From Mycobacteriales bacterium (GTDB lineage Bacteria; Actinomycetota; Actinomycetes; DATLTS01), in contig DATLTS010000022.1 of assembly GCA_035533475.1 (NCBI GenBank), positions 1-53,151 on the forward strand: 53,151 nucleotides of DNA, given 5' to 3'. The translations under genes were made by a program, and so were the position numbers. The notes beneath the pieces were generated by a model. It did not search any database, had not been told where the DNA came from, and was given only the letters and a program-made list of their open reading frames with translations. This document shows positions 23,802 through 53,014 of this stretch, piece after piece; the stretch's first letter is position 1, and every line of letters begins with the position of its first letter.

Positions 23802-24533
23802 TCACCCAGGGGCGCGGACAAACGATAGCCACTGCCCCGCCTGTTCGGCGCGAATGGCCGCCCACATAGGCATTCTGCCGATCTCAGACTGGGCGCGAAA
23901 GGTCGCCACGGCGTCCCGGATCAGTTCCGGTGCCGAGGCCCGGGCGGCCAGCTCAAGAGCGCGAGATTCGACGGCCTCATCCTCCAGGGTCTCCCAGGCG
24001 AGCCCGAGTTCGACCATTCTCCTACCGTCGATTTCTTCGCCGAGGAGAGTCATCGCGACCGTCGCTTGGGCGCCGCCCGCGCGTTCCAACAGCCGGAAAT
24101 GGCCGCCTCCGGGGTGCAGGCCAATTCGCAGGAAACCGGAAATGATCCTGGCGTCGCGCGCGACGACGCGGACGTCCGCTGCGAGAGCAAGGTTCAAACC
24201 GGCCCCAACAGCTGCCCCGCGAATAGCAGCGATCGTAGGCACGCGCAGGGTTGCAAGACGCTGAAAGGACTCGTATATCGCGGCCAACGCTCCGATTACC
24301 TCAGGATCGTTGGGCCGCTCACGCGCCGCCGCAAGCAGACCTCGGTCCGCGCCGGAGCAGAATTGCCCGTCCGCGCCACGGACCACCAGGGCGCCGACAT
24401 CCTGGTGAGCGTCGACCTCGTCGAGGCAGGCGAGGAGTTCCCGTGCGGCATCGCCCGTCAAGGCGTTCCGGGTGGTGGGTGGGCCGATGGTGATGATGGC
24501 GACCGAATTGGTCACTGTGAGCGTCGCTCCCAT
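23802..24533 (-). CDS. enoyl-CoA hydratase/isomerase family protein
   Basis: A 243-residue crotonase. The oxyanion-hole segments are GALVVRGADGQFCSGAD and AIRGAAVGAGLNLALAADVR, and the family block FLRIGLHPGGGHFRLLERAG follows. It should hydrate or isomerise a 2-enoyl-CoA in the cytoplasm. AGGGAAGTGAG precedes ATG 24533. The gene is the leftmost member of the island and is divergent from the CoA-ligase/ABC operon; the perfect TetR-type palindrome at 24577-24600 lies between the two starts. The exact acyl-CoA is unknown. Confidence 0.9.
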   Translation of the reverse strand: MGATLTVTNSVAIITIGPPTTRNALTGDAARELLACLDEVDAHQDVGALVVRGADGQFCSGADRGLLAAARERPNDPEVIGALAAIYESFQRLATLRVPTIAAIRGAAVGAGLNLALAADVRVVARDARIISGFLRIGLHPGGGHFRLLERAGGAQATVAMTLLGEEIDGRRMVELGLAWETLEDEAVESRALELAARASAPELIRDAVATFRAQSEIGRMPMWAAIRAEQAGQWLSFVRAPG

Positions 24534-24576
24534 GCAGCTCACTTCCCTGAGGCTGGGCGGCATCCGCCAGCGTTCG

Positions 24577-24600
24577 CCTGTCAACGTGATCGTTGACAGG
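24577..24600 (+). promoter_or_regulatory. TetR-type operator A
   Basis: Perfect inverted repeat with arms CCTGTCAACG and CGTTGACAGG around TGAT, core TCAACGTGATCGTTGA at 24581-24596. It lies between divergent hydratase and ligase genes. This is the longest-armed of eight copies in the island. Confidence 0.85.
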
Positions 24601-24621
24601 CTCGGTGGAAGCGCCTAGCCT
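24593..24621 (+). promoter_or_regulatory. promoter of the ligase-livG-ligase-livF operon
   Basis: TTGACA (24593-24598), 17-bp spacer, TAGCCT (24616-24621). The -35 hexamer is the right arm of operator A, so bound repressor would block RNA polymerase. Confidence 0.65.
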
Positions 24622-24683
24622 ACGCGGACAGGAAGAAAAGCAGTCTTGGCCCAATCGGGGGCCAGCCTCAGGAGCGTTCCGCC

Positions 24684-25898
24684 ATGGACCCCGTTCGCCT
24701 TGCCGAGCAGACGGTAGATAGGGCCCAGCTCCAGGCCCTGATCGCCCGTGCGCTCGAGACGCCGGCTTATGCGAGTGAATGGGAAGGCGTCGATCTTGAC
24801 GACTGGGAGAGTTTGCCGCTCCTAACGAAAGAGCGTCTTGTAGAGGCGTCCTCCGGTGCCGACCCTTTTGGCGGACGCCTGGCCGTGGACCCGGCCGAGC
24901 TGGCCTACGTGTTCGTTGCGGCGGGTCCGCTGTACATGCCATTCACCGCGGCGGACCTAACCGCGATGGCCAAGTCTTACGCGCATGCGTTCACGAATGC
25001 CGGGCTGACCGACGCGGATCTCGTCGATCAGACCACGATGTACAACTGGGTGATCGCGGCAACGGTGATCACCGAAGGCCTTCGAATGGTCGGCTGCGGC
25101 GTCGTGCCCGGCGGAGTAGGCCGGACGGAGCTGCATCTAGACACCATCCGCGCCCTCGGCGTAACGGGCATAGTGGCCTTTCCGACCTTTCTGGAACACC
25201 TGCTCCGGCAAGCCGACGCGGCCGGCATCGAGTTACCGCTCCGCAAGGCCGTGCTGATGGGGGAGCTCAGCAACCCGAACCTCGAGCGCCACTTCGAAGA
25301 CGCCTACGGACTAGTCGCCCGCGAGTTCTACGGAACAGCCGACGTGGGGGTGGTCGCGTCAGAATGTGCAGCCGGTCAGGGTATGCACCTGCGCTCGGAC
25401 CTAGTGATCGAATTCATCGATCCGGCGACGGCGGTGGCCGCCCTGCCTGAACCTGGCCACCCGATGGAACTTGTGGTCAGTGATCTTTCGCGTCGCGCCA
25501 TGCCAATCGTCCGGCTCCGCACCGGCGACCTCGTCGACTCGGTCTTTCGGGATGCGTGCCGGTGCGGTGACGATCAGCCCCGCATCGCACGCATCGTCGG
25601 GCGCTCCACGGAAATCACCAAGATCAAAGGAATGTTCCTCGTCCCCTCCACCATCACCCGGGCGCTCGCGAGCGCGAGTCTCGACTGCGCCTTTCAGGTG
25701 ATTATTCAGCGACGACCTGGCGGGCAGGACGATCCGCGCTTAGCCCTGGCGTCACCCAAGCCTGCGAATGCCCTCGCCATCGAGGAAGCCATCGAACGGG
25801 CTGCTCGCATGAAGATTCCGCTCGAGTGGGACGCCGTGATAGCCGAGAACTCGCCGCTGGTTCTCGACCTGCGCGACGAGGCCGTGGGCTCCCGCTGA
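24684..25898 (+). CDS. phenylacetate-CoA ligase (PaaK)-like adenylate-forming protein
   Basis: A 404-residue relative of PaaK, which joins aryl or acyl acids to CoA via an acyl-adenylate. Family blocks: FYGTADVGVVASEC, MPIVRLRTGDLV and IVGRSTEITKIKGMFLVP. The phosphate loop, normally SSGTTGKP, reads VAAGPLYMPF, lacking Ser/Thr/Lys, so activity is doubtful or the chemistry differs. CAGGAGCG precedes ATG 24684. It is first in a four-gene operon with the two Liv ATPases and a second ligase, each overlapping the next. It may act on the imported substrate, or be a non-catalytic partner of the second ligase. Confidence 0.8.
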   Translation: MDPVRLAEQTVDRAQLQALIARALETPAYASEWEGVDLDDWESLPLLTKERLVEASSGADPFGGRLAVDPAELAYVFVAAGPLYMPFTAADLTAMAKSYAHAFTNAGLTDADLVDQTTMYNWVIAATVITEGLRMVGCGVVPGGVGRTELHLDTIRALGVTGIVAFPTFLEHLLRQADAAGIELPLRKAVLMGELSNPNLERHFEDAYGLVAREFYGTADVGVVASECAAGQGMHLRSDLVIEFIDPATAVAALPEPGHPMELVVSDLSRRAMPIVRLRTGDLVDSVFRDACRCGDDQPRIARIVGRSTEITKIKGMFLVPSTITRALASASLDCAFQVIIQRRPGGQDDPRLALASPKPANALAIEEAIERAARMKIPLEWDAVIAENSPLVLDLRDEAVGSR

Positions 25899-26761
25899 TG
25901 GGCACCCTCTACGCATCACCGACGCCCCGCTTCTTCGAGCCGGGAACCGGCTCCGAGCCGGGAACCGGCTCCGAGCCGGTTCTGAGCGTCGAGAAGCTAG
26001 GTCTTTCATTCGGTGGTGTCGTGGCCATCGACGATCTAACCCTCGACGCGCGCGCCGGAGAGGTTTTGGGGATCGTCGGCCCCAACGGGGCCGGGAAGAG
26101 TTCTCTGCTCAACTGCATCAGCGCCTACTACCGACCGACATCGGGACGGATTCTTGTCCAGGGGCACGATGTGAGCCGCCTCTCACCTCACCAAGTCGCG
26201 CGCAGAGGAGTCGGCCGGACGTTTCAAAATGCCCGGCTCTTTCTGGGTCTATCGGTGCTCGACAACCTCATGGTTGCGGCCGCGTCCGCACAGGGCTGGC
26301 TGGTGGCGGCCGCGGTCATCAGGCCCTGGGGACTACGCCGGGAAGCTAAACTCCGGCGGGGAGTAGAGGAGATTCTCGATTTTCTCGACCTGTCAGCCTA
26401 TCGAGACCAGGCCTCAGGGCTGCTGGGATACGGACTGCGCAAACGCGTGGACCTGGGCCGCGCCATCGCCCGCAACCCACACCTTCTGCTGCTCGACGAG
26501 CCGATGGCCGGGATGAACCAAGACGAGAAGGCAGACATGGCCCGCTTCATCATCGAGCTCAATCGTGATGCGGGCCTGCCGGTAGTTCTCGTGGAGCACG
26601 ACATGGCCGTGGTCAGTGATCTTTGCGATCGAGTCGTCGTGCTGGACTGGGGAAAGCTGCTCGCCGAGGGACGCCCCGACGAAGTCCTTCAGCGCCCCGA
26701 TGTCGTCGCGGCATACATCGGCACCGGCCCGGTGGTCAGCGGTGGAACGGACACCAATTGA
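25898..26761 (+). CDS. livG: branched-chain-type ABC transporter ATP-binding protein
   Basis: A 287-residue ABC ATPase of LivG type. Walker A is GPNGAGKSS near residue 65, the LivG-specific GVGRTFQNARLF follows, then the signature region LGYGLRKRVDLGRAIA (an LGYG form of the usual LSGG) and Walker B LLLLDEPMAG. The switch histidine is in VLVEHDMAVV. ATG 25898 overlaps the upstream stop by one base. The N terminus carries a short GTGSEP repeat before the ATPase domain. It should energise the permeases at 30353-32319 together with the LivF-type ATPase at 28722. The substrate is inferred from context to be an organic acid, not necessarily an amino acid. Confidence 0.92.
   Translation: MGTLYASPTPRFFEPGTGSEPGTGSEPVLSVEKLGLSFGGVVAIDDLTLDARAGEVLGIVGPNGAGKSSLLNCISAYYRPTSGRILVQGHDVSRLSPHQVARRGVGRTFQNARLFLGLSVLDNLMVAAASAQGWLVAAAVIRPWGLRREAKLRRGVEEILDFLDLSAYRDQASGLLGYGLRKRVDLGRAIARNPHLLLLDEPMAGMNQDEKADMARFIIELNRDAGLPVVLVEHDMAVVSDLCDRVVVLDWGKLLAEGRPDEVLQRPDVVAAYIGTGPVVSGGTDTN
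25937..25980 (+). repeat. in-frame 18-bp tandem repeat in livG
   Basis: Two perfect copies of an 18-bp unit starting GAGCCGGGAACC at 25937 and 25955, plus a partial third copy. They encode EPGTGS twice, then EP. This is an unusual N-terminal extension for LivG and may be slippage-prone. Confidence 0.8.
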
Positions 26762-28725
26762 CCGACGATGAGCTCACCCTCCCCCGGCTGATTCGGCGGA
26801 ACGCCGAAATCCGCGGCGAGCAAATAGCGATGCGTTACAAGCGATTCGGGATCTGGCACACCTATACCTGGGGAACCGTCTGGGGGCAGGCGTCCGCCCT
26901 GGCGGCGGGGCTGGAGCTGCGCCTGCCCGCGAACGACTCATGCCTAGCGATCATCGGGGACAACGAACCCGAGCTGTTCTGGGCGGAATACGCGGCGCTC
27001 TGCTTGGGTCGGCCCGTGATGTGCCTCTTCCCGGACATCTCTGCAACCGAACTCGCCGAGTTGCTCCAAAGATACGCGATCACTGCAGTCATATGCGAAG
27101 ACCAAGAACAGTGCGACAAGGTTCTAGACGCAGCTGAGTCTACCGACGTAGGAATGCTCGCGTACTGGGATGAGCGCGGCATGCGCACATACGACGACAA
27201 GCGGTTGGTCAGCTTCACTGAACTTATCGCCGATGGTCAGGCCCGCTTGAGCGCCGATCCGCATCTGATCGACGCCCGCGTCGACCGTGTCGGACTAGAC
27301 GACCTGGCGGTCGTCATCCTCACCTCGGGAACGAGCTCAGAACCCAAGGGCGTGATGGGAACCCATCGCTACCTGATCGACTGCGCGTCGAGATGGCGGG
27401 ACGTCCTCGATGCAAAAGCGCAGGCTGACTATGTGAGCTACATATCTCCTGCCTGGGCCACCGAGCAATACCTCGGCGTCACGCTCGGCGCCATGCTTCC
27501 GCTGGTCGTCAATTTCGTCGAGGAACCAGAGACGGTCGAGCGAGACATTCGGGAGATCGGAGCCCACTACGTCTTCTTTGGCCCGCGCCAGTGGGAGGGA
27601 ATCGCATCGTCGATAGACCTCCAGATCCGCGACGCCGGCCGCCTGGTCCGCGCGATTTACCGTTGGTCGATCCAGATCCTGCACGGAGACGCAGGGGGCG
27701 GCGCGTCCCGGCTGCTACCGCTGAAGCGCCTGCTCGCCTGGCAGCTGATCGGACGCCCGGTCCGTGATCGACTGGGCTTCTCGAGACTGCGAACCGCGAT
27801 CAACTCTGGTGGTGCGCTCGGACCTGAGCTGTTCGAACTGCTGCAGGCACTTGGGGTGTCCGTTCGCAACGTGTACGGATTCACCGAGGTCGGCATCATT
27901 ACTTCCACCGCGGACGGACAGCGTTTCGAGACGGTAGGTCAGCGTCTAGCCAGTAAATACGGCGACCCGATCGAGATACGCATCCATGAGGGCGAGATTC
28001 AGGTGCGCGGCGGCGTTCCATTCGTTGGCTACTATCTCGAGGAGGGCGTTGCGGCATCGGGCAAACTGACGCCCGATGGCTGGATCCGAAGCGGCGACGG
28101 CGGGTACCTCACCGATGACGAGTACCTGGTCTACCTCGACCGACTCGAGGACATGATCACAACCGCCGATGGGGAAATCCTCGCGCCCGGCTTTTTCGAG
28201 ACGAGGCTCCGATTGAGCCCATACATCCGGGATGTCGCGGTGGTAGCCCCGGACGGCGCCTCGCTCGTTGCCCTGGTCGAGGTCGACGAGGGCGTGGTTG
28301 GCAACTGGGGTGAGCAGCGGCACGTAGCCCTCGGTGACTTTGCCACCATGAGCCAGCACCCTGGGGTGATCGAGCTCGTGCGCGAGGAGATCGCAGGCGT
28401 TAACCGCCTGGCCGCGGAAGGTGCGAGAGTTCAGCGGTTCGCCAACCTCTACAAGAAACTCGACGCTGATGACGGTGAGATGACGCGGAGTCGCAAACTG
28501 CGCCGCAGCGTGGTGACCCGAAAGTACGCCGAACTGCTAAGCGCGCTCGCTAGAGGGGACGCCGAGGTAGACAGCGTCTCGGAAGTGCGGCTGACCAACG
28601 GCGCGACAACGTCCGTGCGCGCGCGTGTGTGTCTCAACGACGTCTTGGAGTGCCCGCGCAGCGGAGATGGGCCGGGACCGGCCGGAACATACGTCAAGCA
28701 GCGCAAGGCCGGAGTGCGACTATGA
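26758..28725 (+). CDS. acyl-CoA synthetase, AMP-dependent (long-chain FadD-like)
   Basis: A 655-residue adenylate-forming ligase that should convert a carboxylic acid to its CoA thioester. Motifs: phosphate loop VVILTSGTSSEPKG, NVYGFTEVGIIT, GWIRSGDGGYLTDD and RLEDMITTADGEILAP. The start is inferred as TTG 26758, overlapping the livG stop as TTGA with GGTGGAACGG upstream; the first in-frame ATG (26830) would remove 24 residues of the domain start. It sits between the two Liv ATPase genes, an arrangement that suggests CoA activation coupled to uptake. An approximately 650-residue FadD-like enzyme of this type often handles long or bulky acids; the substrate is unknown. Confidence 0.88.
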   Translation: MTDDELTLPRLIRRNAEIRGEQIAMRYKRFGIWHTYTWGTVWGQASALAAGLELRLPANDSCLAIIGDNEPELFWAEYAALCLGRPVMCLFPDISATELAELLQRYAITAVICEDQEQCDKVLDAAESTDVGMLAYWDERGMRTYDDKRLVSFTELIADGQARLSADPHLIDARVDRVGLDDLAVVILTSGTSSEPKGVMGTHRYLIDCASRWRDVLDAKAQADYVSYISPAWATEQYLGVTLGAMLPLVVNFVEEPETVERDIREIGAHYVFFGPRQWEGIASSIDLQIRDAGRLVRAIYRWSIQILHGDAGGGASRLLPLKRLLAWQLIGRPVRDRLGFSRLRTAINSGGALGPELFELLQALGVSVRNVYGFTEVGIITSTADGQRFETVGQRLASKYGDPIEIRIHEGEIQVRGGVPFVGYYLEEGVAASGKLTPDGWIRSGDGGYLTDDEYLVYLDRLEDMITTADGEILAPGFFETRLRLSPYIRDVAVVAPDGASLVALVEVDEGVVGNWGEQRHVALGDFATMSQHPGVIELVREEIAGVNRLAAEGARVQRFANLYKKLDADDGEMTRSRKLRRSVVTRKYAELLSALARGDAEVDSVSEVRLTNGATTSVRARVCLNDVLECPRSGDGPGPAGTYVKQRKAGVRL

Positions 28726-29567
28726 CGGCCACGGAGGCCGCCACAAGTGCGCTAGACGGTCCCGCGCGGCCGTTGCTGGAGCTGAATAACGTCGAGGTCC
28801 GGTACCAGGGCACGATCCTCGCGCTCAAGGGGATCTCGTTGCAGATCCGCAGCGGGGAAGTCCTCGGGCTGCTCGGCCCCAACGGGGCAGGCAAGACGAC
28901 GCTCCTCCGAGCTATCTCCAACCTCCTTGCTCCGCAGAAGGGGCGCGTGTCGGAAGGCACCATTACCTTCAATGGCTCCTCGATTGTCGGTTGCACTCCG
29001 ACGGAGACCGTCAACCGAGGTGTGGTACAGGTCCTTGAAGGCCGGCGGGTGCTCGAGCATCTAACCGTCGAACAAAACCTGCGCGCTGCCGCGGCCGCGG
29101 TCAAACTCCGCCGCTCCGAGACCGCAGACGCGATCTCGGACACCTACTCCTTGTTCCCCAAGCTTGCGGTACTGCGAACGCGAAGCGCGGGGTATCTGTC
29201 GGGCGGGGAACAGCAGATGCTTGTTCTCGGTAGAGCCTTGATAACCCGCCCCAAGCTGCTGCTCCTAGATGAGCCGTCGCTGGGGCTCTCGCCCGTTATG
29301 ACCGACTTCGTCTTCGAAACCATCCGTGTCCTCAACACCCGGGGGCTCACCATCCTCGTCGTCGAGCAAAACGCACACCACACCCTCGCGATCTCGGATC
29401 GCGGACATGTGCTCGATACCGGGCGGATAGTACTGAGCGGAACCAGCGAGGAGCTCCGGCGGAATCCTGACCTGCAGGAGTTTTACCTCGGCCTGAACCG
29501 GGATGGCGCTCGCCGGGACTTGCGGGAAACGAAGAATTACAAGCGGCGTCGACGCTGGCTGGGCTGA
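28722..29567 (+). CDS. livF: branched-chain-type ABC transporter ATP-binding protein
   Basis: A 281-residue LivF-type ATPase: Walker A GPNGAGKTTLL, the LivF segment RGVVQVLEGRRVLEHLTV (usually VPEGR), signature YLSGGEQQMLVLGRAL, Walker B LLLLDEPSLGLSP and VVEQNA. ATG 28722 overlaps the ligase stop (ATGA). The 3' end overlaps the convergent TetR gene by 31 bp, so this operon runs toward the repressor gene. It pairs with LivG for the permeases encoded beyond tetR. A C-terminal basic tail (YKRRRRW) is unusual and may reflect the overlap. Confidence 0.92.
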   Translation: MTATEAATSALDGPARPLLELNNVEVRYQGTILALKGISLQIRSGEVLGLLGPNGAGKTTLLRAISNLLAPQKGRVSEGTITFNGSSIVGCTPTETVNRGVVQVLEGRRVLEHLTVEQNLRAAAAAVKLRRSETADAISDTYSLFPKLAVLRTRSAGYLSGGEQQMLVLGRALITRPKLLLLDEPSLGLSPVMTDFVFETIRVLNTRGLTILVVEQNAHHTLAISDRGHVLDTGRIVLSGTSEELRRNPDLQEFYLGLNRDGARRDLRETKNYKRRRRWLG

Positions 29568-30235
29568 ACAGCAGGCTCGCGTCCATGTCTCGGCGCTGGC
29601 GCAGCGGAAATGCCATGGAGGATCATCTCCATGAAGACCCGCGCTATCTCCTCGCCGGTAGGACCCTTATCGGGCTTGAACCAGCGATGGGTCCAGTTCA
29701 CGGCGCCTAGCACGCCGAACGAGATCAGCTCCGGGTCCAACCCCGGTTTGAACTCGCCGGAGACCAGGCCGGCACGGATTATCCGCTCGACAGCCGTGTT
29801 GTAGCGCCGGTGCAGATCGCGTAGCTTCCGTGAAGAACGTCGATCGTCATGCGCGAGCTTGGTCATGTCCTCCTGGACGTAGACGAACAGGTACGGGTAA
29901 TGGCGCTCGTAAGATCGCAACAAAGCGCTTACAAGGTCCGTGAGCATCTCGGCGGCGGTGAGATCACTCGCCGCGATGGCCTCTGCGGTTAGCACGTTGC
30001 GCTCGACCGCGTCGACGATGACCTCGTGAAAGACGTCGCGCTTGTCAGCAAAGTAGTAGTAAACCGTCGCTCTGTCAGTCCCCGCGGCTGCCGCTATTTC
30101 GTTGATGCTCGCGCCGTCGTAGCCGCGATCCCGGAAGACGCCCGCAGCCGCATCCACCAGTGCCGCGCGCTTTTCGACATATTCGCGACTGGGCTCCGCC
30201 TGCGCCTGCTGGCGACGTTCGTTGATCCGACTCAT
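29537..30235 (-). CDS. TetR-family transcriptional regulator, predicted repressor of the island
   Basis: A 232-residue TetR protein. Residues about 20-70 form the DNA-binding domain (VDAAAGVFRDRGYDGASINE, then GTDRATVYYYFADKRDVF); the C-terminal helices should bind a ligand, probably a CoA thioester of the pathway, and dimerise (TetR_C). GGAGGG precedes the ATG at 30235. It is the only TetR gene in the window, and an operator copy lies in its own promoter region, so autoregulation is likely. Eight copies of the same palindrome in six intergenic regions suggest that it controls uptake, ligase, oxygenase and beta-oxidation genes together. The ligand is unknown. Confidence 0.92.
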   Translation of the reverse strand: MSRINERRQQAQAEPSREYVEKRAALVDAAAGVFRDRGYDGASINEIAAAAGTDRATVYYYFADKRDVFHEVIVDAVERNVLTAEAIAASDLTAAEMLTDLVSALLRSYERHYPYLFVYVQEDMTKLAHDDRRSSRKLRDLHRRYNTAVERIIRAGLVSGEFKPGLDPELISFGVLGAVNWTHRWFKPDKGPTGEEIARVFMEMILHGISAAPAPRHGREPAVQPSQRRRRL

Positions 30236-30352: not shown

Positions 30353-31237
30353 GTGGCAACTCTGCTGCAGATCCTCGTTGTCGGCATGCCCATCGGGGTT
30401 GCCTACGCAGCCGTCGCGCTGGGCTTCAACGTCATCTACAGGTCCGGGCGCGTATTCAACATCGCTCTCGGCGAGATGTTCGCCCTGGCGGCGTTCTTCA
30501 TCATGTGGCTCCTCAACCGGGGCGTGCCGGCGTGGCCCGCGGTCGGCATCACGGGGCTCCTCATGATCGCGGTCGGGTTGCTCATCCAGCGACTCGCTCT
30601 GCGACCGCTGCTCGGTCAATCGGCACTCAGTCTATTTATGGCGACGCTGGGCGTCTTGCTCCTCCTCAACGGGGCCGACACCCTGGTGCTTAACACGCCA
30701 ACCGGGACCTTTCCCCAGCTCTTCGGGGCCGGCGCCATCAGGCTGCCCTATGCGGTCCAACTGCCAGTAGCATCAGTGGTGGGCGTGGCGGTCGTCGTCA
30801 TCATCGTCCTGGGCTTTGTCGCATTCTTCTCCCGTACGCAAACCGGGATCGCCATGACCGCGGTGGCCGAGGACCACGAAGTGGCTCAGTCGCTCGGCAT
30901 CAATATCGAGCGGAGCCTGGCCCTCTCCTGGGCTATGTGCGGTCTGCTCAGCACGGTGGCCGCCGTCGTCTACCTTGCCGGGCAACAAGTTACCTCTGAC
31001 ATCGGCTCTGTCGCATTTCTGGCGTTGCCGGTAGTGCTCCTGGGTGGCCTGGAATCCATCGGCGGGGTAATCCTTGCGGGGCTGGTGGTTGGCCTTGGGC
31101 AGACCTCGGCAGCCGAATGGCTGGACCCGCACTTCCACGGAGGTGCAAGCGAGGTCTTCCCCTACCTGCTCATGTTGCTGATCCTCCTGGTTCGGCCCGA
31201 GGGATTCTTCGGGTGGAAGAGGGTGGAGCGGGTATGA
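30353..31237 (+). CDS. livH: branched-chain-type ABC transporter permease, LivH type
   Basis: A 294-residue integral membrane protein with about eight hydrophobic segments. GVAYAAVALGFNVIYRSGRVFNIA, split here after GVAYAAVALG, is the LivH N-terminal pattern, and the coupling region TAVAEDHEVAQSLGINI faces the ATPases. GTG 30353 has a strong GGTGGAGG site. It overlaps the next gene by 4 bp (ATGA). The permeases and binding protein form a transcription unit separate from the two ATPases, but both have the same operator. Confidence 0.92.
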   Translation: MATLLQILVVGMPIGVAYAAVALGFNVIYRSGRVFNIALGEMFALAAFFIMWLLNRGVPAWPAVGITGLLMIAVGLLIQRLALRPLLGQSALSLFMATLGVLLLLNGADTLVLNTPTGTFPQLFGAGAIRLPYAVQLPVASVVGVAVVVIIVLGFVAFFSRTQTGIAMTAVAEDHEVAQSLGINIERSLALSWAMCGLLSTVAAVVYLAGQQVTSDIGSVAFLALPVVLLGGLESIGGVILAGLVVGLGQTSAAEWLDPHFHGGASEVFPYLLMLLILLVRPEGFFGWKRVERV

Positions 31238-45580: not shown

Positions 45581-47236
45581 TCAACCGTGCGGTCGTAGGG
45601 CCTCTCCTAAAGCCTCGCGGGTTAGGCCCTCGCGCTTCACCCTCCAGCCATGCGCCTCCCGATCCCAAGTGGCGGGAGTCAGTCCCTCGGCGCGAAGCTT
45701 GTATTTCTCGACCTTCGCCGTCGGAGTGCGGGGCAGGTCGTCCACAATGTCGATATAGCGCGGGACCATGAAGTACGGCATTGTTGTTGAGCAGTGCTGC
45801 AGAAGCTCCTCCGGGGTCATGCTTTCCCCCTCACGGAGAATGACCAGCACCCGCACTTCGTCTTCACCGATCCCGGACGGAGCCGCCACGGCGACCGCCT
45901 CGGAAACAGCCGGATGCTGTGTCACGAGGGATTCCACCTCGAACGAGGAAATGTTTTCGCCGCGACGGCGCAGCGTGTCCGTCGCGCGGTCTTCGAAATA
46001 GAAGTGGCCGTCCGTGTCCACCCGACCGCGGTCCCCCGTGTGGAGCCACAGGTTCCGCCAAGCACGGATCGTTTGCTCCGGCATACCTACGTACCCAGAC
46101 CCGACGAGGAACGGAAGCTTTGGGCGGACAACGAACTGCCCCGACTCGCCAGCTGGGACTTCGTTGTCGTAGTCATCGACCACTCGGACCTCGTAATACG
46201 GGCTGGCCCGGCCACAAGATCCGGCCCGGTAGGCGTCAGTCACCCCTCGCCAGATGGGCAGCCCCGCCTCGGTCGAGCCGTACACGGTCGTCACCCGGCA
46301 GCTAAATCGCTGCTCGAGCTCATCATGACTTTCCGCCGGATCGGGCACCGCATAGACGGTGCGAATCGAGGCTTTCGCGTCATCTTCTCGCGCGGGTTTT
46401 GAGAGCAGCATGTTGCATATACCACCGACTCCGACGAAGTTAGTGATCCCGTGGGCGCGCACTTCGTCGGCAAATGTCGAGATCGAGAGCCTCGGCGCCA
46501 AGCGCATCATTCCACCGCAAACAAGCGTGGCTATCGTGAGGAATTTCGCGCCCATATGGAAGAAGGGCATGAAGTTGAACACGACGTCGTCGCTCGCAAG
46601 CCCGTTGACCTCGGCGTACATGTAGCCATACGCGGCTAGATAATGGTGACTGAGGAGCACCCCTTTGGACGGTCCGGTGGTTCCTGACGTAAAAATGATG
46701 CCAGCGGTAGTGTGGTGCGCTGGCCGGCTCGAGGGGGCGAACGCGGGGCCGTCGCTCAGCAGCGAGGAGAAGTCGTGCCTGCGTAGCGAGCCGGCGCCGA
46801 TCTCGGCCGGCCCCCTGACAACCAGCGTCTCGAGCATGGTGGCGTCGGCTTCTATGGCCGTTATCCTGCTGGCATATGCGGCATCAACGACGGCGACGGT
46901 CGCCCCACTTGTAGTGAGCTGATGCCGCAATAGGTCCCCGAGGTAGGCAGTGTTGATCGGAACTTCCACCGCGCCCAGCTTTGCCAGCGCGAACCACAGA
47001 GTCAGGTAATCCGGTGAGGTGTCCATGAGAACGGCGACGTGGGTGCCGGTCGAGATACCGAAGGCCTGCAGGTTCCCTGCCATACGATCGACGGCTTCGT
47101 CGAATGTGCCGAGCGCATAGCGCTCCTCGCCCCACGTGAAGAAAGTTCTAGCGGCATCCTCGGCGGCTCGCGATTCCAGCAACGCGACCATGCTGACGCT
47201 TTCGGGCGCCACGTCCCGCAGGTAAATCGTCGTCAC
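45581..47236 (-). CDS. acyl-CoA ligase, AMP-dependent (CaiC/crotonobetaine-CoA ligase-like)
   Basis: A 551-residue ligase with intact motifs: phosphate loop IIFTSGTTGPSKGVLLSH, VYGSTEAGLPIW, WLHTGDRGRVDTDGHFYF, and the catalytic lysine in RTPTAKVEKYKLR. It should activate a carboxylic acid to CoA. I chose GTG 47236 because TGGAGG is six bases upstream; TTG 47242 would overlap the ribosome site. It is the last gene of a four-gene operon with the racemase, hydratase and lyase-like genes. It is convergent with the monooxygenase gene. Confidence 0.9.
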   Translation of the reverse strand: MTTIYLRDVAPESVSMVALLESRAAEDAARTFFTWGEERYALGTFDEAVDRMAGNLQAFGISTGTHVAVLMDTSPDYLTLWFALAKLGAVEVPINTAYLGDLLRHQLTTSGATVAVVDAAYASRITAIEADATMLETLVVRGPAEIGAGSLRRHDFSSLLSDGPAFAPSSRPAHHTTAGIIFTSGTTGPSKGVLLSHHYLAAYGYMYAEVNGLASDDVVFNFMPFFHMGAKFLTIATLVCGGMMRLAPRLSISTFADEVRAHGITNFVGVGGICNMLLSKPAREDDAKASIRTVYAVPDPAESHDELEQRFSCRVTTVYGSTEAGLPIWRGVTDAYRAGSCGRASPYYEVRVVDDYDNEVPAGESGQFVVRPKLPFLVGSGYVGMPEQTIRAWRNLWLHTGDRGRVDTDGHFYFEDRATDTLRRRGENISSFEVESLVTQHPAVSEAVAVAAPSGIGEDEVRVLVILREGESMTPEELLQHCSTTMPYFMVPRYIDIVDDLPRTPTAKVEKYKLRAEGLTPATWDREAHGWRVKREGLTREALGEALRPHG

Positions 47237-47278
47237 GACCAACCTCCAGAAGGTCCCTTCGGCACCGCTAGCGGCCGA

Positions 47279-48478
47279 TCAACCGTCGCTTCCATTGGCC
47301 GTGTCCTTGCCTTTTGGATCGCGGAAAGCGATAGATCCGGCATCCACCAGACGCGCAATCTCAGCAGCAGTCCGTCCGAGCTCACGTAGGATCTCCTCGG
47401 TATGTGCGCCCGACACAGGGGGCGGTGCGAGGCGAGCAGGAGGCCCGCCGTCGAATCGCGGAGCTACCGCCGGCTGAGTAACCCCACCGATATCGATGTG
47501 CAGACCCCGTGCGCGGTTATGGGGGTGTTCCCGAGCCTCAGCGAAGGTGAGGACGGGAGTCAGACAAGCATCGCTATCCGCGAAGCGCCGTTCCCAGTAA
47601 GCCCGGTCCTGGGTGGCGAAGATGCGCTCCAGCTCCGGCCCGAGTGCGCGGACGGTCGAAGGCTTATCTCGATCGTGAGTTGCTGGATCGAGATTCAGGC
47701 CTCTGAGAAGGGCCGCATAAAACTTGGGCTCCAGAGCTCCTACGGCGACGTATTGCCCGTCCCGTGTCTCGTACGTCCGGTACCACGGCAGGCTGCCATC
47801 GAACGCATTGGTGCCTCGCGCGCCCCAGTCACCGCTGGCGATCATTCCCCACGTCGCGGCGGTCAAGGAAGTCACGCCATCAATAATCGCCGCATCCACG
47901 ATCCTGCCGCACCCGGACTGGCTCCGCTCAACTAGGGCCGCCAGGACCCCAAGCACCAGGAACAGGCCTCCGCCGGCATAATCTCCCAGCAGATTCAGGG
48001 GGACAGGGGGTGGCTGGGTGGGCACCCCCATCGCATGCAAGGCGCCGGTGAGACCCACGTAGTTGATGTCATGGCCGGCGGTTGCCGCGAGGGGGCCCTC
48101 CTGGCCCCATCCGGTCATCCGGGCGTAGATGAGCCGCGGATTCAGTCGGCGGTATCTGTCCGGACCAATGTCCAGGCGCTCGGCGACGCCCGGCCGCATG
48201 CCTTCTATCAGCACGTCGGACTCGGACACCAGGTCATCGAGTACTTTTCGTGCGGACTCCTGCGTCAAGTCCAGCCGGATACTGCGCTGACCACGACGGC
48301 GCGGATCCCGGTCAGGCGGTACAGAGGTCCACGACGGCACGGTCCGATCCACGACAATGACCTTGCACCCGAGATCAGCGAGCAACATGGCCGCATAGGG
48401 TCCGGGTCCGAGCGATGCCAGGTGCAGAACGCGGGTCCCAGCGAGCGGCGGGGGGGAAGAGGAGGCCTGCGGGCTCAC
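47279..48478 (-). CDS. CaiB/BaiF-family CoA protein, probable alpha-methylacyl-CoA racemase
   Basis: A 399-residue protein of the type III CoA-transferase fold. The sequence follows the alpha-methylacyl-CoA racemase branch: RMTGWGQEGPLAATAGHDIN (its histidine is the proposed base), LNLLGDYAGGGLFLVLG (aspartate) and IVDAAIIDG. It would convert between R and S 2-methylacyl-CoA so that a stereospecific dehydrogenase can act. This is the best evidence that the island handles methyl-branched acids. GTG 48478 overlaps the hydratase stop (GTGA). A CoA-transferase role remains possible. Confidence 0.88.
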   Translation of the reverse strand: MSPQASSSPPPLAGTRVLHLASLGPGPYAAMLLADLGCKVIVVDRTVPSWTSVPPDRDPRRRGQRSIRLDLTQESARKVLDDLVSESDVLIEGMRPGVAERLDIGPDRYRRLNPRLIYARMTGWGQEGPLAATAGHDINYVGLTGALHAMGVPTQPPPVPLNLLGDYAGGGLFLVLGVLAALVERSQSGCGRIVDAAIIDGVTSLTAATWGMIASGDWGARGTNAFDGSLPWYRTYETRDGQYVAVGALEPKFYAALLRGLNLDPATHDRDKPSTVRALGPELERIFATQDRAYWERRFADSDACLTPVLTFAEAREHPHNRARGLHIDIGGVTQPAVAPRFDGGPPARLAPPPVSGAHTEEILRELGRTAAEIARLVDAGSIAFRDPKGKDTANGSDG

Positions 48479-49233
48479 GACGTGTCGCCGCTCCGATCGG
48501 CGAACGCGCGGAAGGCTTCCAGAGCCTCGGGGCGGCGGTAACTTGCTGCCGTCACCTCCGCCTCCCAGGCGAAAGCTTCGGCGAGCGGCAGATGTTGACC
48601 TTCGTAGACCAGCCGCTTCGTCATGGACACCGCCCATGGGTCGAAGCTGGCGATGGTCCGAGCCCAGTCCATCGCGGTCGGGATAACGCCGGAGTCTTCG
48701 ACCACGGCCTGCACCAGCCCCATCGCAGCAGCTTCTTCCCCAGTGACGTACTTCGAAAGCAACAGGAGCTCGAGCGCCTTGCTCGCGCCGATCAGCCTCG
48801 ACAGCCGCTGGCTCTGCTGCGCACCCTGAACCACATTGCGACGCAGCCCCGAGGGCCCCATTGTCGCGCCTCGCCCGGCAACCCGAAGGTCGCATGCGAG
48901 GGCGAGCGCGAAACCCCCGCCGACCGCGTACCCGGAGATTGCGGCAATGAACGGCTTCCAGATCGGCCATGGCCGAGGGACAGGCGGCGGTCCCGTCCCG
49001 TCGGGGCCAAAGGCATTTCCGGCGATATACCCATCGATCGAGCCGCCTGCCGAGAACGCCCCGGCACCCTCCCCGGTGATGACCGCGACGCGAATCTCGT
49101 CATCGTGTTCGACTCTGGAGTAGGCATCGGTCAGTTGCTCCCGCATCGCTGCGTCCACGGCGTTACGCTTTGCCGCATTGGCGAGCGTGATGGTGGCCAC
49201 GTGATCAACCACGGCGAAGTCGATTCTGCCCAT
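48475..49233 (-). CDS. enoyl-CoA hydratase/isomerase family protein
   Basis: A 252-residue crotonase. VAVITGEGAGAFSAGG and ISGYAVGGGFALALACDLR form the oxyanion hole; GPSGLRRNVVQGAQQSQRLS covers the usual second acid region, where the typical glutamate is not obvious. It might be a hydratase, a dehalogenase-like or a C-C hydrolase member. ATG 49233 overlaps the lyase stop by one base (TGATG). It belongs to the leftward four-gene operon under the E operators. Confidence 0.9.
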   Translation of the reverse strand: MGRIDFAVVDHVATITLANAAKRNAVDAAMREQLTDAYSRVEHDDEIRVAVITGEGAGAFSAGGSIDGYIAGNAFGPDGTGPPPVPRPWPIWKPFIAAISGYAVGGGFALALACDLRVAGRGATMGPSGLRRNVVQGAQQSQRLSRLIGASKALELLLLSKYVTGEEAAAMGLVQAVVEDSGVIPTAMDWARTIASFDPWAVSMTKRLVYEGQHLPLAEAFAWEAEVTAASYRRPEALEAFRAFADRSGDTS

Positions 49234-50216
49234 CAGCTCTCCTGACCGACCGGGGTCGGGGGGCTCGTGCGCTGGAGCTTGCTGTGCAACTGCACGCCAA
49301 GGATCAGTTCCGCGAGGGCGCCCGCGTCGATCAGGGCAGGAAGATCGACTCCGGTCGCGATCTCCATCCGTTGGAGGATGGCCACCAGATCCTCGGTGAC
49401 AACATTGCCCCCCTCGCCGACGAAACCCTGATCGACGCTCGCGGGCTCGCCACCCACCCCTCCGAGACTCGCGTCGACGGTGCCAGCTCCGAAGGCGATG
49501 GCCGTGAGCGCATTGGCGATGCCGCAACCGCGGTTGTCATGGAAATGCGCCACAAACCGCAGGTCCGGCCATGTGGTCGTCGCCTCGTGAAACAGACTCG
49601 CCACAGATCTCGGATCGGCAACCCCTGTCGTGTCCCCGAGCATGATCCGACCTATCCCGATCGAACGACCCCACTCCACCAGGGACAGAACGACGTCGCG
49701 GTCCACGGCCCCTTCGATTGGACAGCCGAATGCCGTTGCCACTCCGAGCAATGGCTGGATCCCAGCGGCGTTCAGTGTATCGGCCATGCGCGCCACTTCG
49801 ACTCGGTGAGCGGAATGGTCCTTGTGCAGGTTGACCAGATTATGGGACTCGCTCGCGGAAAAGGGTATGCCGCAGATATCTATCGGGCGCAACCGGTTGT
49901 GGGCATCGACTGCACGATCGGCCCCCCGGGCATTGGCGGCCAGCACCCGTACCCGGACGGGTTCAGCTATCGACGCCAGCACGTCTTCCGCATCCGCGAA
50001 CTGTGGCGTCACCCGTGGCGATACGAGCGACGTCACATCGATCTCTCGCACCCCCGCGCGCACCACAGCCTCGAGAACCCTGAGCTTTTCACCGAGTGCC
50101 AACACCGTCGGCCATCCTTGAAGACCGTCCCGGAACCAGGTCTCGCAAACCTCCACCGCCATCGTTCTGCGCGTAGCCCGCGGCCAGTCACTTAGCACAG
50201 GTCGGCTGTCGTCCAT
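49233..50216 (-). CDS. HMG-CoA lyase-like protein (HMGL/DRE-TIM family) without the family cysteine
   Basis: About 327 residues of TIM-barrel lyase. WFRDGLQGWP is the RDGLQ catalytic start, AHFHDNRGCGIANAL the metal-binding H-x-H, and DASLGGVGGEPASVDQGF the position of the usual GGLGGCP loop: the cysteine is glutamate here. Canonical HMG-CoA lyase makes acetyl-CoA and acetoacetate; loss of the cysteine suggests an altered substrate. It is first in the leftward operon. ATG 50216 is preferred; GTG 50255 would add 13 residues with no usable ribosome site. A link to the acetoacetyl-CoA synthetase gene nearby is plausible. Confidence 0.78.
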   Translation of the reverse strand: MDDSRPVLSDWPRATRRTMAVEVCETWFRDGLQGWPTVLALGEKLRVLEAVVRAGVREIDVTSLVSPRVTPQFADAEDVLASIAEPVRVRVLAANARGADRAVDAHNRLRPIDICGIPFSASESHNLVNLHKDHSAHRVEVARMADTLNAAGIQPLLGVATAFGCPIEGAVDRDVVLSLVEWGRSIGIGRIMLGDTTGVADPRSVASLFHEATTTWPDLRFVAHFHDNRGCGIANALTAIAFGAGTVDASLGGVGGEPASVDQGFVGEGGNVVTEDLVAILQRMEIATGVDLPALIDAGALAELILGVQLHSKLQRTSPPTPVGQES

Positions 50217-50280
50217 TAGGTCTGGACGCTCCTTGGTTTCGAGCAGCGCTTCCACTTCCCTGAGCTAGCGTCCAAGGTTA

Positions 50281-50296: not shown

Positions 50297-50310
50297 CGGT
50301 CAACGCTTAG

Positions 50311-50351: not shown

Positions 50352-50384
50352 GGGTTGGGCTTCTAGACCGCTCCCTGGAGAGCT

Positions 50385-51554
50385 GTGTTCGATCTCGACT
50401 TAACCGATGCGCAGCGCGACCTGGTCTCCGCCGTAGAGTCGGCGTGCGGGGGCTTCGCCGACGACTACTGGACAGCGCACGATCAAGGCCACCTGTTCCC
50501 GCACGAGTTCTTTGCGGCCATGGTCGAGCTCGGCATCGTCGGCATGCTGGCTCAGCCGGAATACGGTGGGGGCGGCGGATCCATCGAGGATGCTGCCTTG
50601 GCGCTGCAGGCTATTGCGGCGAGCGGTGCCGGGATCAATGGGTGCTCCGCGATTCACCTGTCCATGTTCGGCTTCCATCCTGTTGTGCGTTGGGGAAGTC
50701 CCGCGCTTCAAAAGAAGTACCTCCCTCGGGTGGCAGCCGGAGAGATCCACGTCTCTTTCAGCATCACCGAACCAGATGCGGGTAGCGACACTGGGCGCAT
50801 TTCGACCCGGGCGGAACGCACTACGGACGGCTGGCTGATTCGCGGCAGAAAGGTCTGGATGACGAAGGGGCTGGAGTCTTCGGCGGCCTTGGTGCTCGCG
50901 CGGACGAGCGGGATCGGTGAAACCCCACGGCCGATCGACGGGTTGTCACTGTTCGTCGTAGATCTTGATCCGAATTACGTGCAAATACGGCCTATCGACA
51001 AGATGGGTCGTAACGCCGTCGCGAGCTGCGAAGTTGTGTTCGACGGCCTCCCTGTTCCAAGTGAGAATCTTGTCGGTGAAGTCGGGAAGGGCTTCTACCA
51101 TCTGCTCGACGGCCTTAACCCTGAACGTATCCTGGTCGCGGCAGAGGCCGTGGGCTTGGGCCGGGCGGCTCTCGCAAGAGCGAGCAGCTACGCGAGAGAT
51201 CGGGTGGTCTTCAACCGTCCGATCGGGCAGAACCAGGGAATCCAGCATCCATTGGCCGATGCCCACATGCAACTGCTCTCGGCTGGGGCGATGGTCCGGG
51301 TGGCGGCGCGCCTCTATGACAAGGGGGCATCCTGTGCGGCCGAAGCAAATACCGCCAAGTTTCTGGCCGGACGGGCGGCGTTTTTTGCCTGTGATCGAGC
51401 CCTTCAGACCCACGGCGGCATGGGGTACGCCGTCGAATTCCAGGTAGAGCGCTTCTTTCGCGAGTCCCGCTTGCTGCGGATCGCCCCTGTCAGTGAGGAG
51501 CAGATTCTGAATTACATCGCTGAACGGGAGTTGAGACTGCCCAGATCCTACTGA
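50385..51554 (+). CDS. acyl-CoA dehydrogenase
   Basis: A 389-residue, full-length acyl-CoA dehydrogenase. Blocks: FSITEPDAGSDTGRIS (FAD site), GWLIRGRKVWMTKG, VGKGFYHLLDGLNPERILVA, and LQTHGGMGYAVEFQVERFFR near the C terminus. It does not need a partner subunit. GTG 50385 follows TGGAGAG. It is the third dehydrogenase of the island, with its own operator, and could serve a shorter or branched intermediate. Electron acceptor ETF is not in the window. Confidence 0.93.
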   Translation: MFDLDLTDAQRDLVSAVESACGGFADDYWTAHDQGHLFPHEFFAAMVELGIVGMLAQPEYGGGGGSIEDAALALQAIAASGAGINGCSAIHLSMFGFHPVVRWGSPALQKKYLPRVAAGEIHVSFSITEPDAGSDTGRISTRAERTTDGWLIRGRKVWMTKGLESSAALVLARTSGIGETPRPIDGLSLFVVDLDPNYVQIRPIDKMGRNAVASCEVVFDGLPVPSENLVGEVGKGFYHLLDGLNPERILVAAEAVGLGRAALARASSYARDRVVFNRPIGQNQGIQHPLADAHMQLLSAGAMVRVAARLYDKGASCAAEANTAKFLAGRAAFFACDRALQTHGGMGYAVEFQVERFFRESRLLRIAPVSEEQILNYIAERELRLPRSY

Positions 51555-51602
51555 CCTCCATCATCTGCCCTCCCATCGGCACCATCGGTGTCTAGTCGGT
51601 CG

Positions 51603-52022
51603 TCAGACGTCTTGAGCAATACAGTCAACATGGCCTGCAGCATCTGCAGGCGACACTCGAGATTTTGGTGCAAGGTGGCCAGAGAAGGCAGCCCGAGCGA
51701 GCGCCACTGCTTGGGGCGAGGCTGCGGTCAGTTCTTCAAGCAATCGTTGCACGGCCTTTCCCAATTCGGCGTGCGGCGACACCTCTGTAACGAGCCCTGC
51801 GTGCAACGCCTCGTCCGCCCCAAGTCGCTTGCCCGTGAGCATCATCTGGAGCGCCATTTTTGCTGGGATTGAGTTGAGCAGCGGGATGGTGATCATGTAC
51901 GGCCAAGGCCAACCCTCGCTTCCGGAAGGTTCCGAGCGGTTGATCGTGAGCCTTCCGGCAGATCCCTGACGGTTGGTGACGACAGCGTCCACTGCGCCGC
52001 CTCTCTGGAGACGGACCCTGCT
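51603..52022 (-). pseudogene. enoyl-CoA hydratase gene with internal deletion
   Basis: Only the C-terminal part is good crotonase sequence: WPYMITIPLLNSIPAKMALQ, LTGKRLGADEALHAGLV and ASPQAVALARAAF. Just before it the frame has about 40 residues of jumbled N-terminal-like sequence (VRLQRGGAVDAVV, GRLTINR), and the whole middle with the oxyanion hole (about 100 residues) is missing. No proper start codon exists: the only upstream candidate is a TTG inside operator F. I consider the gene dead. It was once divergent from the acetoacetyl-CoA synthetase gene. Confidence 0.75.
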
Positions 52023-52033
52023 ACAGTCAGTTA

Positions 52034-52049
52034 TCAACGTCCACGTTGA
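52034..52049 (+). promoter_or_regulatory. TetR-type operator F
   Basis: TCAACGTCCACGTTGA, between the hydratase pseudogene and the acetoacetyl-CoA synthetase gene. TTGACT (52046-52051) overlaps its right arm, but I see no good -10 at 17 bp. Confidence 0.84.
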
Positions 52050-52078
52050 CTAGTGACCTGTGATCGAGGCGGCCAGCA

Positions 52079-53014
52079 GTGAGCGTGCAGCGGGGGGATG
52101 AACTGTGGGCTCCGCCGGCGCAAAGACGGCGAGAGGCTCGGATCACAGACTTCATGCGGTGGCTCGCCGACCGACACGGCGTGCATACCGCGGAGTATGA
52201 GGATGTTTGGCGTTGGTCGGTCGGCGACCTCGAACAATTCTGGTCGTCATTCGCCGAGTGGGCTCGAGTACGGTGGCATACCGAACCCGGATCAGCGCTA
52301 ACCGATCGAACGATGCCCGGCGCTCGATGGTTTCCCGGTGCTCGCCTGAACTATGCCGAGCATCTCCTCTTCCCCCCGGGTGCGGACGCCCCCGGCGACC
52401 TCGCGGTGATCTTTGCGCGCGAAGACGGCCTGAACCGGGAGCTATCACGGCGGGAGCTTCGCGATGAGGTGGCCGCGGTGGCGGGTTGGTTGCGAGCTCA
52501 GGGCGTATGCCCCGGAGACCGGGTCGCCGGGTTGCTACCCAACTGCCCGGAAGCCCTAATCGCCATGATCGCGACCACCGCCATAGGTGCCATCTGGTCA
52601 TCGTGCTCCCCAGACTTCGGCCCGCGAGCGGTGGTCGACCGCTTCGCGCAGATCCAGCCAACGATCCTGATCGCCGTGGACGGGTACCGATACGGCGGCC
52701 GGTCATTCACGATCCTCGACCGGATCCAAGCGCTTTGCGACGAGCTGCCGTCGTTGCAGGCCACGGTACTGCTACCCTACCCGGACGCCAATGCGGCCCT
52801 GCCGGGCGCCACCACGTGGGCTGATTTGCTTACCTCGCCAGCCTCAATTGCTTTCGAATCGATGCCTTTTGACGCGCCCCTTTGGATCCTCTATTCCTCG
52901 GGGACCACCGGGCTTCCAAAGCCGATCGTGCACAGCCACGGCGGCATCCTCCTCGAGCACATGAAGCAACTCGCTCTGCACCTGGATATCGGGCCGACCG
53001 ATCGCTTCTTGTAA
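52079..53014 (+). pseudogene. acetoacetyl-CoA synthetase, truncated by an insertion sequence
   Basis: The N-terminal 311 residues of an enzyme that activates acetoacetate to acetoacetyl-CoA and is normally about 650 residues long. The N-terminal cap (WRWSVGDLEQFWSSFAEWAR), the ATP-grip region and the phosphate loop LYSSGTTGLPKPIVHSHGG are intact. The frame ends at DRFL followed by TAA, whose bases belong to the GTAA end of the element starting at 53011. The C-terminal domain with the catalytic lysine is therefore missing, at least on this side. GTG 52079 lies just after operator F. The rest of the gene may lie beyond the element. Confidence 0.82.

Follow-up and report, generated by a model that had tools for sequence, protein, structure and literature searches.

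A mosaic gene island with a conserved thiolase-fold/DUF35 triple in a Mycobacteriales genome, a candidate catabolic set for a branched or alicyclic acid

Which pathway, if any, is encoded by a gene island that joins a Liv-type importer, several coenzyme A (CoA) ligases, a cytochrome P450, a Baeyer-Villiger-type monooxygenase and thiolase-fold proteins? The island, with an importer and about twenty enzymes, occupies positions 23,802–53,014 of contig C22 (DATLTS010000022.1) of a Mycobacteriales bacterium (GCA_035533475.1). The entire contig of 53,151 bp is the window analyzed here, and the host genome comprises 3.27 Mb in 68 contigs. An earlier note, made from the letters of the sequence, had read the island as a single catabolic system for a methyl-branched or alicyclic acid. 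Pfam and NCBIfam scans of the open reading frames (ORFs) between 23.8 and 53.0 kb detected every family that it had listed, and nearly all of its names were correct. The analysis shows that the island is composed of modules, the most conserved of which contains a triple of genes encoding two thiolase-fold proteins, thi1 and thi2, and a DUF35 protein.

The gene thi1 (40,117–41,151, plus strand) encodes a short thiolase-fold protein that matches NCBIfam PRK07937 with 70.8 bits, compared to the family cut-off of 419. The thiolase-fold protein thi2 (42,485–43,657, plus strand) matches PRK08313 with 233.6 bits, compared to the cut-off of 514. The DUF35 protein (41,209–41,691, plus strand) consists of a zinc ribbon and an oligonucleotide/oligosaccharide-binding (OB) fold (zf-ChsH2 and OB_ChsH2_C). 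In a profile alignment, the segment VNTGGATG of thi2 aligns with VNNNCSTG of SCP2-thiolase (6hsj), with Gly in the position of the nucleophilic Cys. The HDCF segment of thi2 has the form [HYQ][AS][PA]F, in which Cys is replaced by Pro or Ala, and the His of the GHP motif is replaced by Asn. The nucleophilic Cys, the Cys of HDCF and the His of GHP are all absent from the alignment of thi1. The previous description of the two proteins as cysteine-less is therefore borne out for the catalytic Cys. Because neither protein contains a Cys nucleophile, thiolysis is unlikely. Retro-aldol-type cleavage by thi1, thi2 and DUF35 is a reasonable inference from the alignments.

The triple resembles the Ltp2-ChsH2 and Sal-Shy systems, in which a thiolase-fold lyase and its DUF35 partner (ChsH2 or Shy) occur beside a heteromeric acyl-CoA dehydrogenase (ACAD). 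A Gly was reported at the thiolase nucleophile position of CtSal, as is found in thi2, and a DUF35 partner is present for 6et9, MucABC, PhlABC and Sal, but absent for TbSLP (PMC12329534). The predicted structure of thi1 (mean predicted local distance difference test score (pLDDT) of 86) has its nearest folds in 6et9 (Foldseek, 4.4e-22), MucABC, PhlABC, TbSLP and Sal-Shy (9myr, 3.5e-17). Unlike the Ltp2 and Sal systems, the island contains two distinct thiolase-fold proteins, its DUF35 is a separate protein, no MaoC hydratase is linked to it, and most carriers are without steroid markers.

The gene thi1 is present in three of the 297 genomes of the host class, including the host itself. A scan of public genomes for thi1 provided 14 loci in metagenome-assembled genomes (MAGs) of Actinobacteria and Proteobacteria and one in the isolate Sphingobium phenoxybenzoativorans SC_3, the contig of which stops inside thi1. 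The triple is intact in 15 of the 16 other thi1-bearing genomes, whereas the sixteenth contig is cut within thi1, and the DUF35 gene adjoins the thiolase-fold genes in all 15 complete loci. Co-occurrence of window genes, at an identity of at least 40% over at least 40% of the length, was counted in 17 loci, which comprise these 16 and plasmid pR8L1 of Rhodococcus sp. 008. The genes thi1, thi2 and DUF35 were found in 15 loci each, the monooxygenase with an NTF2 domain in ten, the cyclase-family hydrolase in nine, P450, ferredoxin and the short-chain dehydrogenase/reductase (SDR) in five each, DUF2889 and the alpha subunit of the ACAD in four each, and the Liv permeases in three. Next to the triple, genes for the cyclase, monooxygenase, P450 with ferredoxin, SDR, ACADs, DUF2889 and Liv proteins are found again at 40–76% identity. 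In the co-occurrence count, no matches were obtained for a control region on contig C46 of the host, which encodes enzymes of comparable classes. Since the triple is intact in independent loci and its neighbor genes recur, the grouping of the island genes exceeds chance. In the nearest relative, a Nocardiopsaceae MAG (L022), the genes for a crotonase, TetR, ligase, DUF2889, cyclase, P450, ferredoxin, ACAD pair, thi1, DUF35, thi2 and monooxygenase form a single run with 48–76% identity to the window genes, except for the ligase, which is 25% identical to ligase lig3 of the window. A phylum-wide search with a thi1 profile was discarded as evidence of orthology, since it returned mostly distant multi-copy thiolase-like proteins with about 200 bits, compared to 513 bits for the window protein.

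The triple varies among its carriers. Most or all of the zinc-ribbon Cys residues are lost from the DUF35 partners in L026, L027, L028, L030 and L033, which are mostly proteobacterial, unlike in the DUF35 of the window. A single betaproteobacterial contig (L030, 9,986–17,770) contains the set of thi1, thi2 and DUF35 twice in tandem, followed by two P450 genes. In two Pseudonocardiales MAGs (L024, 801–4,050; L035, 6,740–9,986), genes for E1-alpha, E1-beta and E2 of the 2-oxoacid dehydrogenase type are located directly upstream of thi1; the domains were tested in L024, and L035 was assigned by the same layout. A plasmid of Simplicispira suum (L050) carries a distant set of thi1, thi2 and DUF35 (30–36% identity) together with a Liv transporter, a ligase, a metallo-beta-lactamase (MBL)-fold hydrolase and SDRs, and represents a related yet separate system. 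The label of the MAG L023, whose record bears the title Bordetella parapertussis, seems doubtful in view of the guanine-plus-cytosine (GC) content of 0.71 of the stretch.

Rather than a single fixed pathway, the island is most aptly regarded as a mosaic of three conserved modules that are combined repeatedly. The first module consists of the Liv importer and CoA ligases; the second of P450 and ferredoxin, the heteromeric ACAD, and DUF35 with the two thiolase-fold proteins; and the third of the flavin monooxygenase (FMO), ligase, racemase, crotonase, a relative of 3-hydroxy-3-methylglutaryl-CoA (HMG-CoA) lyase, another ACAD, and acetoacetyl-CoA synthetase (AACS). The description as a mosaic is based on the right third of the island being found alone on pR8L1 and on most loci with the triple lacking the right-hand module. 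A segment of about 18 kb of pR8L1 encodes ACAD3 (77% identity), crot2 (64%), FMO (64%), lig3 (60%), racemase (59%), the HMG-CoA-lyase-like protein (57%), cyclase (48%), DUF2889 (48%) and a full-length AACS (45%). The island differs from it in having the triple, the ACAD pair, P450 and the Liv genes. Both modules are found together with FMO, cyclase and DUF2889. The racemase, crotonase, HMG-CoA-lyase-like and AACS genes are grouped on pR8L1 as well as in Pseudonocardia pBCI1-2. The genome search for a conserved set, proposed in the earlier note, thus identified a conserved triple and modules that recur separately, and the idea of a single system is weakened in favor of the mosaic.

The enzymes next to the triple provide clues about the chemistry. 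The ACAD subunits alpha (37,899–39,011, plus strand; best PDB match 4x28, 1.8e-41) and beta (39,008–40,084, plus strand; Pfam and NCBIfam) are encoded by adjacent genes. One conserved motif of this enzyme family provides the catalytic Glu, and another binds flavin adenine dinucleotide (FAD). The alpha subunit retains the Glu of ELxxERSGP and lacks the FAD-binding motif RxQFG (alignment of eight sequences), whereas the beta subunit retains RxQFGRP..FQA and lacks the catalytic Glu (alignment of seven sequences). The nearest solved relatives of the pair are 4x28, which we take to be ChsE4-ChsE5, and 6wy9. As judged from these motifs, the pair can be securely assigned as a heteromeric enzyme of the ChsE type, in agreement with the previous annotation, and the similarity supports its placement nearest to enzymes whose substrates have hindered, alpha-methyl or ring-attached side chains. 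The split of the Glu and FAD motifs over two adjacent genes is shared with ChsE4-ChsE5 and ChsE1-ChsE2; however, pairs of the island's type also occur in non-steroid clusters (Peribacillus, Azospirillum and Pseudonocardia plasmids), and therefore the type of ACAD cannot fix the substrate.

The fusion of an NTF2/SnoaL domain with FMO (43,755–45,542, plus strand; 8acs, 1.1e-133, 573 residues) belongs to the type II, Baeyer-Villiger-type FMOs and has copies with 49–67% identity in ten loci. Its SnoaL-like N-terminal extension is that of type II FMOs such as JsFMO (8acs), which oxidizes linear and cyclic ketones (PMC10028610). The alpha-methylacyl-CoA racemase (47,279–48,475, minus strand) matches the racemase MCR (1x74) with 2.5e-99, with the GHDINY segment aligned, compared to 3.9e-33 or worse for CoA-transferases. 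Its identity, proposed before, is secure, and it points to an alpha-methyl-branched acyl-CoA, as the earlier note had argued. The HMG-CoA-lyase-like protein (49,233–50,255, minus strand) is a relative of this family, as annotated previously, but its score of 189.5 bits is under the cut-off of 246 (PRK05692), and it lacks the catalytic Cys. The RDG and HxH motifs of TIM-barrel lyases are retained as in HMG-CoA lyase, whereas GGVGGE replaces GGxGGC and an extra insertion is present, as in Rhodococcus and Pseudonocardia homologs from similar blocks. The Glu in the catalytic loop is common to the homologs from the window, Rhodococcus sp. 008 and Pseudonocardia, while that of Peribacillus has GGLGGC. 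Each of the three members of the Glu-variant subfamily (49,233–50,255 of the window; L047, 1,530–2,534; L085, 14,956–15,918) carries a short insertion and has AACS, crotonase and CaiB-family genes beside or near its own gene. The module further encodes the acyl-CoA ligase lig3 (45,581–47,242, minus strand; PRK06155, 2.1e-155; 60% identical copy on pR8L1), the crotonase-fold protein crot2 (48,475–49,236, minus strand; Pfam; 64% identical copy on pR8L1) and the homomeric-type ACAD3 (50,385–51,554, plus strand; three Acyl-CoA_dh domains; 77% identical copy on pR8L1).

Based on the gene identities, the conservation of the modules and the loss of canonical residues, we infer reactions, their order and a class of substrates. 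The part of the earlier reading that stands is a CoA-dependent catabolic set with an importer, while the class of acid is what the enzymes suggest. The Liv-type importer would take in the acid, and the ligases would form its CoA ester. P450 with ferredoxin may hydroxylate a non-activated carbon, the racemase would set the alpha-methyl stereocenter, and the heteromeric ACAD would introduce a double bond between the alpha and beta carbons at a hindered position. Once water has been added, the complex of thi1, thi2 and DUF35 would release a ketone along with a short acyl-CoA in a retro-aldol-type reaction that splits a C-C bond. A Baeyer-Villiger oxidation by the type II FMO could insert oxygen beside the ketone, and the cyclase-family or MBL-fold hydrolase could open the resulting ester or lactone. 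Finally, lig3, ACAD3, crot2 and the Glu-variant lyase would shorten the remainder to a keto acid for activation by AACS. 2-(Cycloalkyl)propanoates, derived from oxidized isopropyl groups of terpenoids, are an attractive class of substrates, because they would require, in sequence, the racemase, an ACAD for hindered positions, a retro-aldolase and a Baeyer-Villiger enzyme. Beta-methyl isoprenoid acids are an alternative. Abscisic acid is chemically attractive, since its retro-aldol cleavage would yield dehydrovomifoliol, which bacteria are known to produce (PMC7996341), but no gene cluster for abscisic acid was found in the literature examined, so that it is a candidate only. We give a nearly, though not quite, even chance to the reading that the island is a modular set of catabolic genes, spread by horizontal transfer, for the breakdown of a methyl-branched or alicyclic carboxylic acid. 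More tentatively, as possible rather than probable, we propose that thi1, thi2 and DUF35 constitute a new class of two-subunit thiolase-fold C-C lyase, the active site of which is unlike those of thiolases, Ltp2 and Sal; that it feeds a ketone to the Asn-variant Baeyer-Villiger enzyme; that the Glu-variant relative of HMG-CoA lyase catalyzes a new downstream cleavage; and that this route for methyl-branched or alicyclic acids is common to soil actinobacteria and freshwater proteobacteria.

Several observations speak against this route. The motifs YDHF and YDCY, which define Ltp2 and Sal, respectively, as catalytic motifs (PMC12329534), are absent from the alignments of both thi1 and thi2, in which the two proteins differ from these lyases. 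The catalytic residues of JsFMO are His216, Asp217 and Tyr458 (PMC10028610); when these positions were mapped onto the FMO alignment by hand, His216 and Tyr458 were found to be kept, whereas Asp217 is replaced by Asn in the window protein and seven relatives, unlike in JsFMO and other type II FMOs. Hydration by the crotonase-fold proteins of the window was considered and rejected, since the canonical pair of hydratase Glu residues is replaced by Asn and Phe in crot1 (23,802–24,584, minus strand; ECH_1, 2.6e-36) and by Ala and Gly in crot2. Pfam scans of the proteins encoded by the island detected no MaoC domain either, and therefore the hydration step is without an assigned enzyme. In favor of the route, on the other hand, the canonical Glu pair is retained by crotonases whose genes neighbor the triple in L025, L023 and L031. 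The racemase is present in just three of the 17 related loci. Furthermore, the AACS gene appears to be disrupted in the host. The AACS named in the earlier note does belong to this family, but only the N-terminal half is encoded (52,079–53,014, plus strand; TIGR01217, 8.8e-103, model positions 4–310 of 652). The fragment has 311 codons, and its ORF stops where a multi-copy repeat starts, at position 53,010. The remainder of AACS, including the C-terminal domain, was not found in the host genome, whereas AACS is full length on both pR8L1 and pBCI1-2. The acetoacetate branch, from which methyl branching had also been argued, is thus weakened by the broken AACS and by the missing catalytic Cys of the HMG-CoA-lyase relative. 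The repeat (53,010–53,151, no strand assigned), probably the end of an insertion element, has identical copies at another five contig ends (six in total). Its minus strand encodes AKAFCRLRSYLDTARKQGQPALAVLRMLHDSGPWIPAIA followed by a stop codon, which looks, to the eye, like the C-terminus of an IS66-type transposase.

The mosaic could also have arisen from separate transfers that placed two or three unrelated catabolic modules side by side, with no pathway using all of them. Plasmid pR8L1 carries the right-hand module with ACAD3, crot2, FMO, lig3, racemase, HMG-CoA-lyase-like protein and AACS, but neither the triple nor the ACAD pair nor P450; the triple lacks this module in most loci, and AACS is already broken in the island. 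Nevertheless, we regard this explanation as somewhat unlikely, given that FMO, cyclase and DUF2889 accompany both modules and that AACS or racemase homologs beside the triple in L025, L026 and L029 link the modules. A natural-product pathway, in which the triple would be a C-acyltransferase similar to PhlABC or MucABC and P450, FMO and cyclase would be tailoring enzymes, is highly improbable. Two thiolase-fold proteins with DUF35 do constitute the make-up of PhlABC, and the model of thi1 is near components of MucABC and PhlABC. However, the thiolase-fold subunit of the PhlC type carries a catalytic Cys, and both thi1 and thi2 lack the nucleophilic Cys on which acyl transfer depends. The presence of an importer, a racemase, several ACADs, crotonases and ligases points to catabolism, and no polyketide synthase, nonribosomal peptide synthetase or exporter was found in the window.

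The similarity of the island to ChsE, DUF35 and Ltp proteins raised the question of a steroid pathway, which was lowered by the missing HsaA, reopened by contig C46 and lowered again by the co-occurrence of markers. The top families of thi1 and thi2, PRK07937 and PRK08313, are presumably of the Ltp4 and Ltp3 type, respectively, and the ACAD pair is nearest to ChsE4-ChsE5. The island could accordingly be an accessory cluster for sterol or bile-acid side chains, like Ltp3, Ltp4 and DUF35 of actinobacterial degradation of C24-branched sterols (Wilbrink et al. 2012, as cited in PMC10398937), acting together with steroid genes on C46. The region of C46 at 36–80.6 kb (L096–L098) encodes FadA5 (662.8 bits, cut-off 515) and an EchA20-type PRK07938 protein (407.7 bits, cut-off 260), as well as an IpdE2-like ACAD under the cut-off, a fused double ACAD, a ligase, and a set of P450, DUF35, Ltp-like protein, SDR and ACAD. 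A connection between these genes and the island is possible. On the other hand, thi1 and thi2, although they fall into families of thiolase-domain/lipid-transfer proteins of this kind, reach only 17% and 45% of the respective cut-offs, and the cluster context differs. HsaA was not found above the cut-off in the host genome, the island lacks a MaoC hydratase, and the importer is Liv rather than Mce4. Among the 16 other thi1 carriers, one passes the cut-off for PRK07938 and a different one that for FadA5, compared to three of 15 sampled non-carriers for PRK07938; several of the carriers are incomplete MAGs, which makes the absence of a single marker weak evidence. Since the steroid markers are nearly absent from the other carriers, the island is probably not a steroid accessory, and the pattern weighs against a steroid-specific role; we consider the sterol or bile-acid side-chain cluster unlikely.

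Thiolase-fold/DUF35 pairs provide bacteria with the means to cut branched and ring-bearing side chains beyond the reach of beta-oxidation. To our knowledge, only the steroid versions of such pairs are understood. No description of the island's gene combination was found in the open literature, to which the search was confined, and its unfamiliarity, pointed out in the earlier note, was thus upheld. Searches on thiolase aldolases with DUF35, on DUF2889, on the gene set as a whole and on the breakdown of isoprenoids by retro-aldol reactions yielded only steroid systems or nothing relevant. A second solution to the cleavage of such side chains may be provided by the conserved triple, which lacks the known catalytic residues, occurs in unrelated phyla and is accompanied by a Baeyer-Villiger enzyme, and this candidate is open to testing. 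The triple could explain the consumption of terpenoid-like or other alicyclic acids in soil and lakes.

The remaining genes of the island are mostly those for uptake, activation and oxidation. The gene crot1 has copies in the clusters of L022 (67% identity) and G034 (56%). It is followed by an adenylate-forming CoA ligase similar to PaaK and FlxY (24,684–25,898, plus strand; NCBIfam FlxY 9.3e-35 and PaaK 3.8e-33, all under the cut-offs), which has a 51% identical copy in L028. The Liv operon encodes a LivG-type ATPase (25,898–26,761, plus strand; ABC_tran and BCA_ABC_TP_C; NCBIfam LivG, 7.3e-68), a FadD11-like acyl-CoA ligase (26,758–28,725, with an approximate start, plus strand; AMP-binding 5.1e-37, NF038343 1.3e-46) and a LivF-type ATPase (28,722–29,567, plus strand; ABC_tran, 2.9e-29). 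A TetR regulator (29,537–30,235, minus strand; TetR_N and TetR_C_24; 66% identical copy in L022) precedes the permeases LivH (30,353–31,237, plus strand; BPD_transp_2, 3.9e-29) and LivM (31,234–32,319, plus strand; BPD_transp_2, 2.9e-35; NCBIfam LivM) and a LivK-type lipoprotein binding protein (32,363–33,604, plus strand; Peripla_BP_6, 7.8e-24), the translation of which contains the lipobox-like segment SACGG. The DUF2889 protein (33,761–34,339, minus strand; PF11136, 7.7e-17) has invariant Cys and His residues (GCTH segment) in the alignment, which suggest an unrecognized enzyme or binding fold. Its predicted fold (pLDDT of 80) had no PDB match at E ≤ 0.001, the best Foldseek E-value being 0.025. 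The cyclase-family (PF04199) hydrolase (34,341–35,210, minus strand), located beside the module in nine of the 17 loci, is most similar to 5ibz (5.3e-42), with weaker matches to isatin hydrolases. The P450 (35,370–36,620, plus strand; p450, 4.2e-24) matches bacterial P450 structures in the PDB and has copies with 59–74% identity in five loci, where it is adjoined by copies (42–52%) of the Fer4_13-type ferredoxin (36,617–36,844, plus strand; Pfam). The MBL-fold hydrolase (36,841–37,902, plus strand; Lactamase_B, 4.9e-24) had no copy with at least 40% identity among the related loci, and a 26% identical homolog adjoins the remote triple in L050. The SDR (41,688–42,437, plus strand; adh_short_C2, 2.4e-54) has copies with 53–63% identity in five loci.

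The ORFs of the island between 23.8 and 53.0 kb are tightly packed head to tail, mostly with overlapping ends, and their GC content at third codon positions is of the coding type. No tRNA was found in the window by ARAGORN, and no integrase by the Pfam scans. The GC content is 0.733 across the first 23 kb and 0.635 in the island, compared to 0.667–0.741 in ten sampled host contigs. A chimeric contig as the reason for the step in GC content is unsupported, since the drop at 20–25 kb is gradual and the tetranucleotide profiles overlap those of other contigs. To the left of the island (5,588–16,467), the window contains an exopolysaccharide-type cluster with genes for glycosyltransferases, enzymes of the GDP-mannose dehydratase and UDP-GlcNAc 2-epimerase types, and a bacterial sugar transferase.

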